Shown here in pieces: positions 19,883-63,214 of a stretch of DNA of 64,000 nt (position 1 is the first letter of the stretch; the number at the start of each line of letters is the position of its first letter). A program made the translations under genes and the position numbers. Source of the DNA: Bacteroidota bacterium (GTDB lineage: Bacteria; Bacteroidota; Bacteroidia; Chitinophagales; Chitinophagaceae); the NCBI GenBank assembly GCA_016868455.1, contig VGGV01000004.1:1-64000 (forward strand), given 5' to 3'. Below the pieces are notes generated by a model that saw only the letters and a list, made by a program, of their open reading frames with translations, did not search any database and was not told the DNA's origin.

Positions 19883-20287
19883 TTAAACCGCAAAGCTCTC
19901 CCCGCATCCGCAGGTGCGGCTGGCATTGGGGTTACTGAAATAAAAACCTTTGCCGTTAAGGCCATCAGAAAAATCAAGTGTGGTGTTAACGAGGTAAAGA
20001 AAACTTTTCAGGTCAGTAACCACTTTTACACCATTATCTTCAAACACCTGGTCCATGGGTTTCTGTTCATTGTCAAAATCAAGCTTATAGCTAAGACCGG
20101 AACATCCGCCACCCACTACCCCCACCCTTAAAAAATAAGAAGGGTCATTGGCAATGCCTGCATCAGCCATCAGCTGCTGCACTTTAGCCTTTGCCTTATC
20201 GCTGATGTAAATTGAATTGGCCTCCCCGCCTCCGCCAGCTGGCGGAGGGTTCTGGGTTTCTGATAGTATAGCGTTTTCTTTACCCAT
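19883..20287 (-). CDS. iscA: A-type iron-sulfur cluster carrier (IscA/ErpA-like)
   Basis: 134 residues. A-type carriers accept Fe-S clusters from the scaffold and deliver them to target enzymes. The three cluster-binding cysteines are visible: C62 in GGGCSGLSY, then C126 and C128 in RTCGCGESF. The family core starts at residue 26 (IYISDKAKAKVQQLM). The first 25 residues are odd: NPPPAGGGGEA (13-23) is encoded by a perfect CCTCCGCC/GGCGGAGG palindrome, so a mobile palindrome appears to have been absorbed into the N-terminal tail. It is last in iscS-iscU-iscA, followed by a terminator at 19821-19850. Confidence 0.93.
   Translation of the reverse strand: MGKENAILSETQNPPPAGGGGEANSIYISDKAKAKVQQLMADAGIANDPSYFLRVGVVGGGCSGLSYKLDFDNEQKPMDQVFEDNGVKVVTDLKSFLYLVNTTLDFSDGLNGKGFYFSNPNASRTCGCGESFAV
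20229..20248. repeat. palindrome inside iscA, read in frame
   Basis: CCTCCGCCAGCTGGCGGAGG is a perfect 20-base palindrome next to GGCCTCCCCG. It is read as PPPAGGGGEA in the IscA N-terminal tail. The flanking GAGGCC and the GGEA peptide tie it to the G-rich family in leuS and ileS. Confidence 0.75.
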
Positions 20288-20315: not shown

Positions 20316-20366
20316 AGCTCCTCTTTCGGAGGGCCTGCCTGCCGGACAGGCAGGGTTAGGGGAGGC
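20316..20366. repeat. composite palindrome cluster between iscU and iscA
   Basis: CCTCTTTCGGAGG is followed by GCCTGCCTGCCGGACAGGCAGG and then GGTTAGGGGAGGCC. Two palindrome families are nested here. The outer edge touches the iscU stop codon, so the TAG at 20367-20369 abuts the element's first bases. It could affect iscU-iscA mRNA processing. Confidence 0.7.
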
Positions 20367-31589: not shown

Positions 31590-34500
31590 TTACCCTTTTT
31601 TTAAAACAATCACATTTAGCGAAACATCGTTGATTTCTACCCCGATAGCATCCCGATTGTTATCGGGAGGGGCCGTTCCGTCCTGTATTTCATCCCGATA
31701 GCTATCGGGAACAAACTCCAGCGTATCCGCCAGAATTTCGGCGCAAATATAGTCTTTATACAATGCCAAAGAATCTTTTAGTGTGTTAGCATTATAAACC
31801 TTAACATCCACCCTGTCCGTCAGTTCAAAGCCGCTGTCTTTCCGGATTTTCTGAATCCGGTTCACAAACTCCCGGGCATTGCCTTCGGCTTCCAGCTCGG
31901 GGGTTACGGTAATGTCAAGCGCCGCGGTCAGGCTGCCTTTGGTGGCCACCGTCCACCCCGGAATATCCTCGCTGCTGATCTCTACTTCAGAAGCCTGTAA
32001 TATTACAGGTTCGCCATCAAGCAGCAAACTATATTGTCCTTCTTTTTCAAACCGGGCTATATCTTCCTGTGTAAATTGGGCCAGTGCGGCTGATACCGCC
32101 TTCATTTTTGGTCCCAATTTTTTACCAAGAGCCACAAAATTGGGTTTGATCTTTTTGCTGATAAAGGTATTGTCCGGGTTCAGGTATTCAATCTCTTTTA
32201 CATTTACTTCGGCCTTTATTAAATCTTCCACTTTTTGCAGCTGTTCTTTCATGAAAGGGTTCAAAACCGGGATCAGCACTTTCTGCAACGGCTGGCGAAC
32301 TTTAATATTTACCTTTTTGCGAAGCGATAATATCAATGAAGAGGCATCCTGTGCCAGTTGCATTCTTTCTTCTAAGGACACATCAATAGCCACTGTATCA
32401 GCAACCGGGTAATCGGCATGATGAGCTGATTCCACCCTATGTCTTCCCGTCACGGCATTCAGATTTTGGAAAAGACTATCGCTGAAGAATGGAGAGATGG
32501 GGGCAATCAGCCTTGTCAATGTTTCTAAACATTCGTACAAAGTCTGATAAGCGCATATTTTATCCTGCTCATATTCCCCTTTCCAAAAACGTCGGCGGCA
32601 GAGGCGCACATACCAATTGCTCAAATGTTCGTCCACAAAATCTTCAATTACACGGCCGGCCTGGGTGGGCTCATAATCGTCCATGTACTCGTTGGCTTTC
32701 TTTACCACTGTGTTGAGTGAAGAGAGAATCCAACGGTCAATTTCAGGTCTTTGCCGCAAAGGGATATAAGCTTCTTTAAAAGCAAAACCATCCACATTGG
32801 CATACAGGGCGAAGAACTGATAAGTATTATATAACGTTCCGAAGAATTTACGCTGCACTTCTTTAATACCATCCAGGTCAAACTTCATATTATCCCAAGG
32901 TGAAGCATTGGTGATAAGGTACCATCTTGTGGCATCGGCACCGAAAGTTTCAATCGTTTTGAATGGGTCCACCACATTGCCCAGGCGCTTGCTCATCTTA
33001 TTGCCGTTCTTATCCAGCACTAATCCGTTTGAAACACAAGTCTTGTAAGCCACCGAATCAAAAACCAGTGCAGCAATGGCATGCAGGGTATAAAACCATC
33101 CTCTTGTCTGGTCAACGCCTTCGGCGATGAAGTCAGCGGGAAATGAGGCCCCCTCCAAACCTCCCCTCAGGGGGGAGGCTTCCGAAGCTGCATGATATTT
33201 GAAAAAGTTTTCAGCACTCAGCGTACCAAACTTATTTGAACTGCTATCCGGGAGGCCCCATTGGGCATAAGGCATGGCGCCGCTGTCAAACCAAACATCT
33301 ATCAGGTCGGGTACCCGTTTCATCGGTTTGCCTGAGGCACTTACCAATGTGATCTCATCTACATACGGTTTATGCAGATCAAGAATGCCTTCATGCAGAT
33401 AGTGTTTGTTTGTTTCTCCTCCCAAAACTTCTGCAGCCTTTCGTATTTCAGCATTCAGTTCTTCAATACTGCCTATACATTTTTCTTCTTCCCCATCTTC
33501 CGTTTTCCAGATTGGAAGCGGAGTGCCCCAATACCTTGAACGGCTCAGGTTCCAGTCCACCATATTTTCCAGCCAGTTGCCAAAGCGGCCATCACCGGTG
33601 CTTTTGGGTTTCCAGTTGATGGTTTTATTTAATTCCACCATCCTGTCCTTGATAGCCGTGGTTTTGATGAACCAGGCATCCAGCGGGTAGTATAAAACAG
33701 GTTTATCCGTTCTCCAGCAATGCGGGTAGCTGTGTTCGTATTTCTCAACTTTAAAAGCCCGGTTTTCTTTCTTAAGTTTTACAGCTATGTCAACATTCAC
33801 ATCAACATAGTTTTTCTGATCTTTGTAATTTTTTACATAGCGGTTGCTGAATTCGCCAAGGCCATCCACAAACTTTCCTTCCCTGTCCACCATGGTGAGG
33901 ATTCCGATATTGTATTTTCTGCCAATCTTAAAGTCATCGGCTCCAAAGGCTGGCGCCGTGTGAACGATGCCTGTACCGTCTTCAGTAGTCACAAAGTCGC
34001 CCACCAGCACACGGAAAGGTTTTGCTCCGGAAGTTATTTCTTCAATGACTTTGGGTGAGTTGGCTTCAAAAGGGAGAAGTTGTTCATATTCGCAGCCTTC
34101 AATTTCTGAGCCTTTGAATTCAGCCAATATTTTCCAGGGAGTGGCCCCCCTGCCCCCCGAAGGGGGGTTCTTAGAACCCTCACTTTGAGGGTCGTTCATT
34201 TGAGACAGATAATTCTCAAAATTTCCGTTTTCTCCTTCTGCTTTAAAATATTTACCTGTCAGCGTTTTTGCTAAAACAACATTAATCTCATGGTGCAAAT
34301 AGGGGTTGAATGTTTTTACCAGCACATAATCAATATTTCCGCCAACAGTCAAGCCAAGATTAGAAGGTAATGTCCACGGCGTTGTCGTCCATGCTAAAAA
34401 GAAAACTTCTTGTGCCTTGTCTCTTGTGCCTTGTGCCTTTTCCGCTGCATCAAATAAAAATTGGCTTTTCTCGTTCTTTACCGCCTTAAACATAGCTACG

Positions 34501-35129
34501 GCAGAAGTATCCTTCACATCCTTATAGGTTCCCGGCTGGTTCAGCTCATGCGAACTTAATCCTGTTCCCGCTGCCGGTGAGTAAGGTTGGATGCTTACAC
34601 TTTCATACAGCAATCCTTTTTTATACAGCTCACTCAACAGCCACCAAACCGTTTCAATGTATTCGTTTTTGTAAGTGATGTACGGGTCATTCAAATCAAC
34701 CCAGTAACCCATCTTGCGGGTAATTTCATCCCACTTGTCTTTATACCGTAATACCGCTTCCCGGCATCCCTTATTATAGTCTTCAACAGAGATCTTTTTG
34801 CCAATATCTTCTTTGGTTATCCCTAACTCTTTTTCTACGCCCAGTTCAATCGGAAGGCCATGTGTATCCCAGCCGCCTTTTCTCTTTACCTGGAATCCTT
34901 TCATGGTTTTGTAGCGGCAAACCAAATCCTTCAGCGTTCTTGAAATAACATGGTGAATCCCGGGCATGCCATTGGCGCTGGGCGGGCCTTCATAAAACAC
35001 AAAGGGTGTGGCGCCATCCCGAAGAGAGACACTTTTTTCAAATGCCTGTGTCTCCGACCATTTGGTCAATATTTCCTGTTCAAAAGCCGGAAGATCCAGT
35101 CCAGTGAATTCTCTGTATTTAGTGATCAT
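31590..35129 (-). CDS. ileS: isoleucine--tRNA ligase, enlarged by in-frame repeat inserts
   Basis: 1179 residues from the ATG at 35129 (MITKYREFTGLDLPAFEQ). The class I motifs are PSANGMPGIHH (HIGH) and NKMSKRLGN (KMSKS); the editing domain has GTGIVHTAPAFG. It charges tRNA-Ile. Four or five stretches are foreign to the family and coded by repeats: KAQGTRDKAQE (~230-240), a tract with PPSGGRGAT (~312-329), EASPLRGGLEGAS (~649-661) and a C-terminal tract with PDSYRDE and APPDNNRDAIG (~1139-1164). All keep the frame and lie in surface-loop positions, so the enzyme should still work. A dksA-like gene follows after 4 bases. Confidence 0.96.
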   Translation of the reverse strand: MITKYREFTGLDLPAFEQEILTKWSETQAFEKSVSLRDGATPFVFYEGPPSANGMPGIHHVISRTLKDLVCRYKTMKGFQVKRKGGWDTHGLPIELGVEKELGITKEDIGKKISVEDYNKGCREAVLRYKDKWDEITRKMGYWVDLNDPYITYKNEYIETVWWLLSELYKKGLLYESVSIQPYSPAAGTGLSSHELNQPGTYKDVKDTSAVAMFKAVKNEKSQFLFDAAEKAQGTRDKAQEVFFLAWTTTPWTLPSNLGLTVGGNIDYVLVKTFNPYLHHEINVVLAKTLTGKYFKAEGENGNFENYLSQMNDPQSEGSKNPPSGGRGATPWKILAEFKGSEIEGCEYEQLLPFEANSPKVIEEITSGAKPFRVLVGDFVTTEDGTGIVHTAPAFGADDFKIGRKYNIGILTMVDREGKFVDGLGEFSNRYVKNYKDQKNYVDVNVDIAVKLKKENRAFKVEKYEHSYPHCWRTDKPVLYYPLDAWFIKTTAIKDRMVELNKTINWKPKSTGDGRFGNWLENMVDWNLSRSRYWGTPLPIWKTEDGEEEKCIGSIEELNAEIRKAAEVLGGETNKHYLHEGILDLHKPYVDEITLVSASGKPMKRVPDLIDVWFDSGAMPYAQWGLPDSSSNKFGTLSAENFFKYHAASEASPLRGGLEGASFPADFIAEGVDQTRGWFYTLHAIAALVFDSVAYKTCVSNGLVLDKNGNKMSKRLGNVVDPFKTIETFGADATRWYLITNASPWDNMKFDLDGIKEVQRKFFGTLYNTYQFFALYANVDGFAFKEAYIPLRQRPEIDRWILSSLNTVVKKANEYMDDYEPTQAGRVIEDFVDEHLSNWYVRLCRRRFWKGEYEQDKICAYQTLYECLETLTRLIAPISPFFSDSLFQNLNAVTGRHRVESAHHADYPVADTVAIDVSLEERMQLAQDASSLILSLRKKVNIKVRQPLQKVLIPVLNPFMKEQLQKVEDLIKAEVNVKEIEYLNPDNTFISKKIKPNFVALGKKLGPKMKAVSAALAQFTQEDIARFEKEGQYSLLLDGEPVILQASEVEISSEDIPGWTVATKGSLTAALDITVTPELEAEGNAREFVNRIQKIRKDSGFELTDRVDVKVYNANTLKDSLALYKDYICAEILADTLEFVPDSYRDEIQDGTAPPDNNRDAIGVEINDVSLNVIVLKKG
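31639..31712. repeat. two CCCGATAGC/GCTATCGGG palindromes inside the ileS 3' end
   Basis: CCCGATAGCATCCCGATTGTTATCGGGAG-type sequence (31639-31672) and CATCCCGATAGCTATCGGGA (31691-31710) are copies of one palindrome. Both are read in frame near the IleRS C-terminus. A related copy is at 36966 in the TonB receptor. Confidence 0.75.
33146..33183. repeat. G-rich palindrome inside ileS
   Basis: GGCCCCCTCCAAACC followed by TCCCCTCAGGGGGGAGGC. In the coding direction it reads EASPLRGGLEGAS, directly before FPADFIAEGVDQTRG where relatives have no such sequence. Confidence 0.8.
34143..34194. repeat. double hairpin repeat inside ileS
   Basis: CCCCCCGAAGGGGGG and ACCCTCACTTTGAGGGT lie next to each other. 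In the coding direction the segment reads DPQSEGSKNPPSGGRGATP, between a variable linker and WKILAEFKG of the editing domain. Confidence 0.8.
34409..34441. repeat. GGCACAAG simple repeat inside ileS
   Basis: In the coding direction AAGGCACAAGGCACAAG then AGACAAGGCACAAGAAG gives KAQGTRDKAQE just before the conserved FFLAWTTTPWTLPSN. It is a direct-repeat family, not a palindrome. Confidence 0.7.
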
Positions 35130-35161
35130 GTTAGGTCTTTTCCGCCCGATTTTTAAGTCGG

Positions 35162-35169
35162 CAAAGCTA
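35162..35169 (-). promoter_or_regulatory. putative -7 box of ileS (TAGCTTTG)
   Basis: On the minus strand TAGCTTTG lies 32 bases before the ATG at 35129, which supports the shorter ileS start over any start upstream of it. Confidence 0.5.
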
Positions 35170-35323
35170 CGAAAAACAAAGGGTGTTATAGAATAATAAA
35201 GAGGCTGTCTCAAAAGGATAGTCAGTTTGAGTTTATTGAAGGCTCACAATTTGATTGCCAATATTTCGACAAGCTGACTAAAGTCATACAGAAAATAAAT
35301 ATATTTTGAAAGTAAAATTGATT

Positions 35324-60181: not shown

Positions 60182-63100
60182 TCACACCACCACGTTAATC
60201 ATTTTGTTTTTAACATAAATGATTTTTTTGGGGGGGTTGCCCTCCAGCCATTTTTGCACGGTGGCATTTTTTAAAACGATTTCTTCCACCTGCTGTTGCG
60301 TTGCATCAAGCGCAATGGTGAGTTCAGTTCTTGTCTTACCATTGATGGCTACCGGATAGGCCTTGCTGGTTTCTTTGATATATTTTTCTTCCCACTTCGG
60401 GAATGAGGCATCAATAATGGTCGTGGTGTTTCCAAGAGCATGCCACAACTCCTCAGCAATATGGGGGGCATAGGGTGCCAAAAGAATAAGCAGGGGTTCA
60501 AGGATTTCTTTCTTGTGACATTTTAAGTCAATGAGTTCATTTACACAGATCATAAAAGTGCTGACGCCGGTGTTGAAGCTGAATCGTTCGGTATCTTCTT
60601 CAATCTTTTTGATTGTTTTGTGCAGTATTTTAAGTTCGGTGTCGCTGGGGGTCTCGTTTGTCCATACGGCCTCCCCCTGACCTCCTCCGGAGGAGGGGGA
60701 ATTAGTCTCCTTAAAAAACAATCTCCATAATTTTTTCAGGAAACGATGAACGCCTTCAATACCCTTGGTATCCCAGGGTTTGCTCATTTCCACCGGGCCG
60801 AGAAACATTTCATACATGCGGAAGGTGTCGGCGCCGTATTTGTAAACTAAATCATCGGGATTAACTGTGTTGAATTTGGATTTGGACATTTTTTCAACTT
60901 CACTTCCGCAGATATAAGCCCCTCCCTGACCCTCCCCGGTGGGGAGGGAAACAGAACCGTCTTCACAAATCAGTATTGCATCTTTGTATTCACCGTTTCT
61001 CCATTTTCTAAACTCTTCAATATTTAACTCAACGCCATCAACCATATTAACATCAATACGGATTTCTGAATAGCCCGGATCGTAGACATCATACTCGTTA
61101 ACATCGGGATAGAAATTTTCAAATACTTTATTTGCAGCTAATGCAATCTTTTTCCCATTATCTGATTCTAAGCAATCTCTCTTCAAAATGTTATATGATA
61201 AAAATAATTGCCGTTTTAAATTTTTCTTTAACTGCCCTGTTGAATCATAATCAGAAGATGAGTTAAGTCTATAAACAAACCTGCTATTCCCCTGAATCAT
61301 CCCTTGATGCACCAATCGCTTATATGGTTCATCATGTCCAATCAATCTTAAATCATACAGCACTTTCGTCCACATACGGCTGTACAATAAATGGCCGACA
61401 GCATGTTCTGTACCACCAATATATAAGTCCACCTGCCCCCAGTAATCGCTGGCTTTGCGGCTGCAGAATTCTTTATCATTATGCGGGTCCATATAGCGCA
61501 GAAAATACCAGGATGAACCGGCATATCCGGGCATGGTAGTGGCCTCCCCCCGGCCTCCCCCGAAGGAGGGGGAGTTAAGCCATTCCTCCTTGTTGCTTAA
61601 TGGTCCTTCTCCGTCTTTACCAGGCCTGATATCATCCATGTGCGGCAGCTCCAATGGTAAGATGGATTCATCCAATGCGTATGCAACTCCGTTCTTCCAT
61701 GTTATCGGAAAAGGCTCGCCCCAGTAGCGCTGACGGCTGAAAGCGGCATCCCTCATTTTATAATTCACTTTTCTTTCGCCGATGCCCATCTCGTCCATCT
61801 TGTTTAGCACCACTTCTATCGCATCCTTCATCACCATACCGTTGATGAAATCAGAATTCTCCAAAATGGCTTCTTTAGTGGGGTTAGCCTCCTCGCCGTT
61901 ATAATAACTGCCGATAATATTGGTAATGGGGATATGGAAATGCGTCGCAAATAAAAAATCCCGCTGATCGCCGCAGGGCACGGCCATAATGGCGCCGGTG
62001 CCATAGCCAATCAGCACATACCCTGAAATCCATATCGGAATTTCCCTGCCGCTGAAGGGATGGATGCAATGGGTCCCCGTAAACACCCCGCTGATCTTTT
62101 TCTCCGCCATCCGTTCCCTTTCGCTGCGGCTGTTTACATAATCAAGGTATTTTTCTACTTCGGCTCTGTGCACATCAGTGATTAGTTCTTTCACCAGTTC
62201 ATGCTCAGGGGCAATAACCATAAAGTCAACCCCGAAGATGGTATCGGGCCGGGTGGTGTAAACACGGAGTGGATGGTGAGTAGTGAGTGGTGAATGGGAT
62301 GATGATGAGCCTTTACTCACAACTGACAACTCACGACTCACTATTTTAAAATCTATTTCCGCTCCGCTGCTCTTGCCAATCCAGTTCGTCTGCATCTCTT
62401 TCATGCTTTCGCTGAAATCAACCCGGTCCAATCCATCCAGCAGGCGGTCGGCATATTCGGTAATGCGCAGGTACCACTGCCGCAGTTTCTTTTTCACTAC
62501 CGGATGACCCCCCCTTTCGCTTACACCGTTCACCACTTCGTCATTAGCCAGCACGGTACCCAACGCTTCGCACCAGTTCACTTCGCCATAGCCGCAATAA
62601 GCAAGACGGTACTGCATCAGGATACCCTGTTTTGTTTTTTCATCAAAGCCCTTCCACTCAGCGGCAGAAAATTGAATGGCATTGTCCCCGGGGCAAATAT
62701 GTCCGGTGTTCCCTTCCTGCTCAAAAGCGCTTACCAGTTTTTCAATGGATTCAGCCTTGTTGGTATTGCGGTTGTAAAAGCTTTTGTAGAGCTGCAGAAA
62801 TATCCACTGCGTCCATTTATAATATTTCGGGTCGCAGGTGCGTACTTCCCGGTCCCAGTCGTAACTGAAACCGATATTATCAAGCTGTTTCCTGAAATTA
62901 TTAATATTGCTTTCTGTCGAAATACGGGGATGAATGCCATGCTCTATAGCATATTGTTCGGCCGGCAGGCCGAAAGCATCATAACCCATCGGATGGAGTA
63001 CATTATATCCCTTCAGTCGTTTAAATCTTGAATAAATATCCGAAGCAATATAACCCAGCGGATGACCCACATGCAGCCCGGCGCCACTTGGATAGGGAAA

Positions 63101-63214
63101 CATGTCCAGTACATAATACTTCGGTCTGGGTGATTCATTGGATACCTTATATACCTTGTTTGAGCTCCACCACTCCTGGCACTTTTTTTCGATATCCCTG
63201 AAGTTGTATTCCAT
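60182..63214 (-). CDS. leuS: leucine--tRNA ligase, enlarged by five in-frame inserts
   Basis: 1010 residues; I estimate Bacteroidota relatives at about 920-940. It charges tRNA-Leu and edits mischarged tRNA. HIGH is PYPSGAGLHVGHPLGY and KMSKS is EKMSKSKFNTVNPDD. Inserts relative to family: VVSKGSSSSHSPLTTHHPL (~290-316), NSPSFGGGRGEA (~545-558), an AT-rich run of ~70 residues starting SSSDYDSTGQLKKNLKRQ (~641-713), SVSLPTGEGQGGA (~753-766) and NSPSSGGGQGEA (~836-849). All are between conserved blocks and do not disturb motifs, so the enzyme should still be active. The start ATG at 63214 is followed by EYNFRDIEKKCQEWW, the standard N-terminus. Confidence 0.96.
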   Translation of the reverse strand: MEYNFRDIEKKCQEWWSSNKVYKVSNESPRPKYYVLDMFPYPSGAGLHVGHPLGYIASDIYSRFKRLKGYNVLHPMGYDAFGLPAEQYAIEHGIHPRISTESNINNFRKQLDNIGFSYDWDREVRTCDPKYYKWTQWIFLQLYKSFYNRNTNKAESIEKLVSAFEQEGNTGHICPGDNAIQFSAAEWKGFDEKTKQGILMQYRLAYCGYGEVNWCEALGTVLANDEVVNGVSERGGHPVVKKKLRQWYLRITEYADRLLDGLDRVDFSESMKEMQTNWIGKSSGAEIDFKIVSRELSVVSKGSSSSHSPLTTHHPLRVYTTRPDTIFGVDFMVIAPEHELVKELITDVHRAEVEKYLDYVNSRSERERMAEKKISGVFTGTHCIHPFSGREIPIWISGYVLIGYGTGAIMAVPCGDQRDFLFATHFHIPITNIIGSYYNGEEANPTKEAILENSDFINGMVMKDAIEVVLNKMDEMGIGERKVNYKMRDAAFSRQRYWGEPFPITWKNGVAYALDESILPLELPHMDDIRPGKDGEGPLSNKEEWLNSPSFGGGRGEATTMPGYAGSSWYFLRYMDPHNDKEFCSRKASDYWGQVDLYIGGTEHAVGHLLYSRMWTKVLYDLRLIGHDEPYKRLVHQGMIQGNSRFVYRLNSSSDYDSTGQLKKNLKRQLFLSYNILKRDCLESDNGKKIALAANKVFENFYPDVNEYDVYDPGYSEIRIDVNMVDGVELNIEEFRKWRNGEYKDAILICEDGSVSLPTGEGQGGAYICGSEVEKMSKSKFNTVNPDDLVYKYGADTFRMYEMFLGPVEMSKPWDTKGIEGVHRFLKKLWRLFFKETNSPSSGGGQGEAVWTNETPSDTELKILHKTIKKIEEDTERFSFNTGVSTFMICVNELIDLKCHKKEILEPLLILLAPYAPHIAEELWHALGNTTTIIDASFPKWEEKYIKETSKAYPVAINGKTRTELTIALDATQQQVEEIVLKNATVQKWLEGNPPKKIIYVKNKMINVVV
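60668..60705. repeat. G-rich palindrome inside leuS, read as SPSSGGGQGEA
   Basis: CCTCCCCCTGACCTCC followed by TCCGGAGGAGGGGGA. It lies in frame between LFFKETN and VWTNE, which are contiguous in relatives. Confidence 0.85.
60916..60955. repeat. G-rich palindrome inside leuS, read as LPTGEGQGGA
   Basis: CCCCTCCCTGACCCTCCCC followed by GGTGGGGAGGG. It lies between CEDG and YICGSEVEKMSKS, right before the catalytic KMSKS loop. Confidence 0.85.
61541..61579. repeat. G-rich palindrome inside leuS, read as SPSFGGGRGEA
   Basis: GGCCTCCCCCCGGCC followed by TCCCCCGAAGGAGGGGGAG. It lies between EEWLN and TTMPGYAGSSWYF. Confidence 0.85.
62267..62343. repeat. GTGAGT/ACTCAC long inverted repeat inside leuS
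   Basis: GTGAGTAGTGAGTGGTGAATG and TTTACTCACAACTGACAAC, TCACGACTCAC form an imperfect inverted repeat. In the coding direction it reads SRELSVVSKGSS and SHSPLTTHHPLR, just before VYTTRPDTIFG of the editing domain. Confidence 0.8.

Follow-up and report, generated by a model that had tools for sequence, protein, structure and literature searches.

Short palindromic repeats, some of them within proteins, are common in bacterial genomes, and for many of them the mover is not known. The Vsr-like homing endonucleases that occur in introns and in split inteins have a nuclease fold related to that of DUF559, are active in homing and ride on self-splicing elements; in contrast, no self-splicing element was found in the fused DUF559 loci scanned here. 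The closest published idea found is the ShiLan-type insertion in a phage DNA methylase gene. According to the available parts of its description, it resembles the elements described below in that the host gene is kept open, no intein or intron is detectable, the distribution is patchy and an endonuclease is encoded, but its nuclease is of the HNH type and lies out of frame (PMC11855218), whereas DUF559 is in frame here. The DUF559 elements further differ by their residence in cellular housekeeping genes, their palindromic inverted-repeat bounds and their many solo copies; the same parts of the ShiLan paper contain no mention of palindromes or inverted repeats, and they report a lone LAGLIDADG insert in a ShiLan-type methylase that is without a detected splicing domain and apparently vertically inherited (PMC11855218).

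Rickettsia palindromic elements and intragenic REPs, the latter being already known, are likewise short palindromes within open reading frames that are translated; the excerpts of the source mention no DUF559 partner, and the REP families are tagged GTAG or CGTC (PMC3733652). REPtrons and TIR-associated tyrosine transposases share with the present elements an enzyme gene between repeats that are also found as solo families, but their enzyme is a tyrosine transposase and not a PD-(D/E)XK nuclease, and an enzyme gene residing as a domain inside host proteins is not described in these excerpts (PMC3733652). The Caulobacter DUF559 protein VsrA is presented, in the accessible part of the report, as Vsr-like and as the cause of the SOS response in a methyltransferase mutant (PMC12907096). 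Among the best matches of a literature search (titles and abstract openings, mainly from open-access journals), none was found that ties DUF559 to palindromes or in-frame inserts, and the papers containing DUF559, COG2852 or PF04480 had no title or abstract opening making this link.

Here we present an analysis of a stretch of 64,000 nucleotides (the window) from a member of the Chitinophagaceae, together with the genome that contains it and the genomes of its relatives. The reading that we consider probable, at roughly 0.6, is that the palindromes in its leuS gene are ends or non-autonomous derivatives of a homing- or transposition-like DUF559 mobile element living unspliced in genes.

Palindromes in leuS and elsewhere in the genome

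The leucyl-tRNA synthetase gene leuS (60182-63214, minus strand) encodes a LeuRS of 1010 aa and is the host gene of three palindrome inserts plus one insert of another kind. The three in-frame G/C-rich palindromes reported by the first-pass annotation were confirmed, as were their peptides as translations within LeuRS. Given by plus-strand coordinates, they are located at 60669-60706 (residue 839; a hairpin with the outer arm GCCTCCCCC, minus-strand peptide SPSSGGGQGEA, 43.2 bits), 60918-60955 (residue 757; LPTGEGQGGA, 41.6 bits) and 61542-61580 (residue 548; SPSFGGGRGEA, 39.1 bits), the bit scores being those of copies that are themselves in the training set of the covariance model described below. 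The annotation had also held that each copy is read in the one frame that is open. A common frame is indeed used by all three copies, but 3, 5 and 4 of the six frames are open in them, so that the claim of only one possible frame fails.

The fourth insert, at LeuRS residues 288-322 (62249-62353, minus strand), is a different imperfect palindrome, GTGAGT...ACTCAC, with the peptide ELSVVSKGSSSSHSPLTTHH. It represents a second type with a lower GC content, and three homologues (L056, L101 and L118) have SPLTTHH-like peptides in the same loop that somewhat resemble ELSVVSKGSSSSHSPLTTHH. Hairpins of yet another type, CAACCCCGAAGGGGTTG, unlike the leuS family, are found near two intact Y1_Tnp genes (L044 and L045, on contig C19 of G000).

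The exact gapped pattern CCTCCCC..GGGGAGG has two matches in the window, one in leuS and one in ileS, vs 0.01 expected; the remaining leuS copies are imperfect versions of it. GC-rich hairpins (stem of at least 6, GC of at least 80%) number 28 in the window vs 5-12 in five Markov-1 controls. A chance origin of the palindromes was rejected on the basis of these two comparisons.

A covariance model was built from 15 copies, comprising 13 solos (four of them from the window) and both ends of the genome's own CinA element. Applied to the whole genome (150 of 351 first-look candidates scored), it yielded 57 matches at E<=1, 36 of them below E 0.02, in which the training copies match by construction and a few places match on both strands. 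The palindrome is thus not unique to leuS. Regarding the 30 best matches, 16 lie inside open frames, as do the Rickettsia palindromic elements by their description, and 14 do not; the criterion, at least 45 open codons to either side, is a mechanical one, and chance frames may account for some of the 16. The DUF559 element in CinA contributes its two ends to these 16, of which 11 are read in one orientation and 5 in the other.

Five matches at E<0.01 are located in the window. Two of these lie in ileS, the second host gene, which encodes a class I tRNA synthetase of the isoleucyl type (31590-35213, minus strand), where related copies had been predicted: a solo palindrome at 33148-33185 (plus strand; peptide EASPLRGGLEGA; in the training set) and a weaker one at 34144-34176 (plus strand; peptide NPPSGGRGA; 20.8 bits). 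Copies had also been proposed in iscA and in the iscU-iscA gap. GC-rich hairpins from the hairpin count are indeed present in iscA, within its 5' part and ahead of the Fe-S_biosyn domain (20229-20248), and in the gap (20338-20354), but neither has a covariance-model match at E<=1, and none of the five matches in the window is at iscA.

DUF559 inserts in LeuRS, CinA and other hosts

The LeuRS loops were compared in an alignment of 109 homologues, which is partly redundant (two overlapping searches, some of the same organisms). The short form without the insert was found in 92 of 108 rows at site 757 and in 95 of 107 at site 839, where two other rows (L021 and L054) have palindrome-type peptides; site 548 is a loop of naturally variable length, short in 62 of 109 rows. 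Most homologues are therefore without the inserts. Glycine-rich loops such as IPPTGGGGALE occur at site 548 in L016, L020, L062, L077 and L094 and may be decayed palindromes. The tolerance of the loops is judged from alignment variability and not from structure, because the AlphaFold model of the window's LeuRS and 20 homologues was of low quality (mean pLDDT 54, pTM 0.30) and was left unused.

Since the segments do not occur in all homologues and the palindrome is not confined to leuS, the earlier view of a peptide-coding mobile repeat resembling Rickettsia palindromic elements is supported. That interpretation stands as far as a mobile in-frame repeat is concerned, fails regarding the single open frame, and had overlooked the connection to DUF559.

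In two of the leuS loops that have inserts in the window, that of the fourth insert (residue 296) and that of SPSFGGGRGEA (residue 548), relatives carry an in-frame element of about 500 bp that consists of a Vsr-like DUF559 gene between two inverted palindromes. In G001, a genome of the same genus, about 160 in-frame codons of DUF559 (PF04480) endonuclease interrupt LeuRS at residue 296, bounded by two palindromes encoding LPSPGGEE and SPSPQGEGRGEA; besides this one element, the same LeuRS contains three more hairpins, two of which share the outer-arm/inner-arm motif of the element ends. The residue 296 loop carries DUF559 in frame also in G012, G066, G090 and G140, the last three of which belong to another family, and the residue 548 loop does so in G015, G086, G117 and G175; the correspondence was established by alignment for G001 and by eye for the others, from flanking motifs in the case of residue 548.

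DUF559 was detected in 109 of the 198 Bacteroidota genomes searched, and at least 32 DUF559 rows among the matches listed lie within open frames that span 250 codons or more. At least 90 codons flank DUF559 on both sides in 31 of 40 large-frame loci, a count that sets aside L196 with its repeat-derived flanks. A Pfam scan of 26 hand-chosen large-frame ORFs, in which the inserts match PF04480 above cut-off, revealed host domains on both sides of DUF559 in 20: LeuRS (7), MetH (3), HsdR (3), RecG (2), a UvrD-like helicase (1), CinA (1) and type ISP or Eco57I-like restriction-modification enzymes (3). In the other six, domains were found on one side only (HsdM 2, other methylases 2, HsdR 1, M23 1). 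An intein or intron reading was rejected: Pfam detected no intein (Hint) domain in the 26 fused ORFs (E cut-offs 1e-3 or 1e-5), and no group I or II intron RNA was matched in Rfam at gathering score in eight fused loci. Chimerism of MAGs is an unlikely source of the fusions, because these are also present in the single-contig genomes G066, G080, G140, G143, G149 and G169.

The residues E, D, ExD and H, a pattern that represents the catalytic residues of the nuclease family, are invariant in 60 of 60 DUF559 domains, 40 of which are in frames of more than 250 codons. Conserved residues of active-site type are thus intact in these predicted endonucleases.

The site in CinA offers a comparison within the genus. 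Of 30 CinA loci taken from the 39 genomes, 27 allowed the loop flanked by GTAPGMxF and FxSLPGVPHEM to be read, and the other three yielded no junction; the loop contains DUF559 in six genomes, is short in 20, and holds a solo palindrome encoding PPSGGGGAL in G246. In the CinA host tree, full G248 and solo G246 are sisters (100/100), as are full G009 and empty G236 (100/97), the tree being largely poorly resolved elsewhere. To judge from sequence, full, solo and empty states of one site are present in close relatives. CinA of G009 is nearest to that of its sister G236 in most windows along the gene. In the 30 codons that precede the insert, the values of G000 (0.87) and G242 (0.82) are above that of G236 (0.80); in the 30 codons that follow it, G242 reaches 0.85 vs 0.76 for G236; at 60-90 codons after it there is a tie with G242, and the DUF559 domain itself is nearest to that of G242. 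This flank pattern may reflect the co-conversion that accompanies homing, but it comes from a single gene. Values of dN/dS were 0.05-0.16 for DUF559 within CinA in the 9 pairs, out of 15, for which dS was computable, similar to those of the host parts (0.02-0.15), with synonymous sites near saturation.

Ends, copies and distribution of the DUF559 elements

The ends of DUF559 loci were examined in a sample of 89, from which 21 duplicates or near-duplicates had been removed beforehand. The sample is not random: besides 20 small-frame loci, it contains best hits and hand-picked large-frame loci. The 84 loci with 260 bp on both sides were used. The local score of the left flank against the reverse-complemented right flank was at least 20 in 41 of the 84 (48.8%), which thus possess terminal inverted repeats as in classical TIR transposons, vs 2.6% of 1008 swapped pairs and 0 of 291 shifted ones. 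The other 43 loci score below 20, which counts against the DUF559 model. GC-rich hairpins stand on both sides in 51 of 82 loci vs 6 of 272 control windows. The 41 clear-ended elements measure 430-725 bp (median 543), and no target-site duplication of more than 2 bp was found in them, some end positions being uncertain where alignments ran into the flanks. In this they differ from classical TIR transposons, a further point against the DUF559 model.

The ends of the CinA element in the window's genome begin with AGCCTCCCCAAACCCC and AGCCCCCCTAAATCCC. Its left-end motif CCTCCCCAAACCCCTC has eight exact occurrences in that genome, one of them the element itself. The end-motif counts support shared end types, but for this one the reversed control is unusable, as it hardly differs from the motif. 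Two exact copies of CCTCCCCAAACCCCTC in G236, in which no DUF559 was detected, run against the DUF559 model.

Two copies of about 490 bp in G115 are 85.5% identical, start and end near the repeats, and have flanks that are unmatched beyond these; G203 has four related DUF559 copies that form one clade (96/94). Both cases point to movement to new sites. L136 (G004:C59) and L147 (G012:C379), from two genomes of the genus, share a free-standing DUF559 region (about 1.5 kb, 99.5% identity) and are otherwise unmatched, which possibly reflects recent transfer or an assembly effect.

Outside the Bacteroidota, 10 of 37 DUF559-bearing plasmid records were examined. The end test gave scores of 19 or more for eight of the ten, but only five stand out, because swapped pairs of plasmid flanks reach 25 and five loci exceed every such pair. 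On a Sphingomonas plasmid (L312, NZ_CP155753.1), sufB and sufC are separated by a DUF559 gene whose hairpin ends match. A Synechocystis plasmid (L311, CP101712.1) has, in this order, a short DUF1156 gene, a DUF559 gene and a hypothetical gene, an arrangement in which a DUF559 element may have interrupted a gene.

In a tree of the 60 domains, the inserts of LeuRS, CinA, MetH, RecG, M23 and UvrD fall into one clade of 22 (99/96). On the best DUF559 tree, LeuRS site 296 requires 3 label changes and site 548 requires 2. Because well-supported branches force only one change per site, a repeated invasion of these LeuRS loops by DUF559 lineages is suggested and not more than that.

The association of DUF559 with palindromes was assessed in the 39 genomes of the genus, a palindrome-rich genome being defined, with a threshold chosen afterwards, by at least three copies of CCTCYCCN{3,8}GGRGAGG. 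A DUF559 match was present in 15 of 15 palindrome-rich genomes vs 3 of 24 others (p=3e-8); with strong matches only, the counts were 14 of 15 vs 2 of 24, and among genomes of at least 2.6 Mb they were 15 of 15 vs 2 of 8 (p=3e-4). This association is partly circular, because the ends of an element count as palindromes themselves; they make up 3 of the 4 pattern hits in G008 and 2 of 21 in G001. After a worst-case correction that subtracts two ends per DUF559, 7 of 7 vs 11 of 32 remained (p=0.002); among genomes of at least 2.6 Mb the same subtraction gave 7 of 7 vs 10 of 16, which is not significant (p=0.12). The number of palindromes also tracks genome size (rho 0.66), the DUF559 matches of G246 and G237 are weak only, and DUF559 is present in G248 and G249, which have no hit to this narrow pattern; these observations weigh against the DUF559 model.

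Proposed mechanism, rival explanations and implications

Many DUF559 genes have, by the comparisons above, cognate inverted ends and reside in frame in essential proteins. In the mechanism that we propose, the full element of about 0.45-0.7 kb would be a gene for DUF559 (Vsr-like, PD-(D/E)XK) between two terminal inverted repeats, each made up of an outer arm and a G/C-rich hairpin. The nuclease would introduce cuts or nicks at hairpin or target sites; repair of the break would then copy the element in, in a homing-like manner and on occasion at a new site. An insertion within a gene would be tolerated as a translated extra domain and would persist because its ends are without stops in the frame used and are placed in tolerant loops. 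The solos in leuS would have been left by deletion between hairpin ends or by mobilization in trans. We infer that DUF559 itself is the mover of the palindromes, and likewise its nuclease activity, the copying route and the origin of the solos.

The sharing of sites and ends could also have arisen if the palindromes form a repeat family of their own that some other enzyme spreads, with DUF559 genes merely homing into palindromes already there, an explanation that we regard as unlikely though by no means negligible. It would suit the great excess of solo palindromes over DUF559 genes, which is a point against the DUF559 model in the window's genome as well (two DUF559 genes, one of them truncated, vs 36 palindrome matches at E<0.02). 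It would also suit the different DUF559 lineages that may have invaded the same LeuRS loops (the 3 and 2 label changes), the two palindromes in each of G007 and G152, in which there is no DUF559 hit, and the weakening of the genus association once the ends that belong to the elements are subtracted. However, the match between the two ends of one element is far better than that between swapped ends, which homing into existing palindromes need not yield, and all palindrome-rich genomes, as counted, carry DUF559.

Movement of the palindromes as REP elements by RAYT, a Y1 tyrosine transposase that acts in this way in many bacteria, with a secondary link to DUF559, appears improbable. In the window's genome there are two intact PF01797 proteins as well as fragments, and one RAYT domain has two palindrome matches (C19:33772-33888) at a distance of about 1.6 kb, but the hairpins adjoining both of the genome's RAYT genes differ from the palindromes (CAACCCCGAAGGGGTTG and similar), and the GTAG tag is absent from the alignment of 15 copies. 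Across the 39 genomes, PF01797 occurs in 10 of 15 palindrome-rich vs 6 of 24 other genomes (p=0.018), an association that leaves 5 of the 15 without a PF01797 match and is absent in genomes of at least 2.6 Mb (p=1). Highly improbable, in our view, is that DUF559 is a passively carried host repair or defense domain flanked by transcription or stability signals or by chance hairpins, although the available part of the VsrA report predicts a role in mismatch repair for this Caulobacter DUF559 protein (PMC12907096) and restriction-modification or methylase genes are the hosts in 11 of the 26 fusions scanned with Pfam. Such signals would not make cognate inverted pairs, nor would they sit in frame within LeuRS, CinA, MetH and RecG, and sister genomes differ in the presence of the element.

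A broader proposal goes beyond the reading of the leuS palindromes as parts of a DUF559 element and is put forward tentatively, at somewhat less than even odds: a new class of bacterial mobile element, namely a self-sufficient, palindrome-ended DUF559 cassette that would live as an unspliced extra domain in essential enzymes, reinvade the same tolerant loops in distant lineages and shed peptide-coding palindromes genome-wide. If this is true, DUF559 would be the missing mobilizer of GC-rich palindromic repeats that are widespread in Bacteroidota, Proteobacteria and Cyanobacteria. DUF559 is a concrete candidate enzyme, testable at the bench, for one class of palindromes. The apparent natural insertion of a nuclease domain, without splicing, into the working essential enzymes LeuRS, MetH, RecG and CinA is relevant to the acquisition of domains by proteins, to the annotation of genes and to homing-type drive among bacteria.
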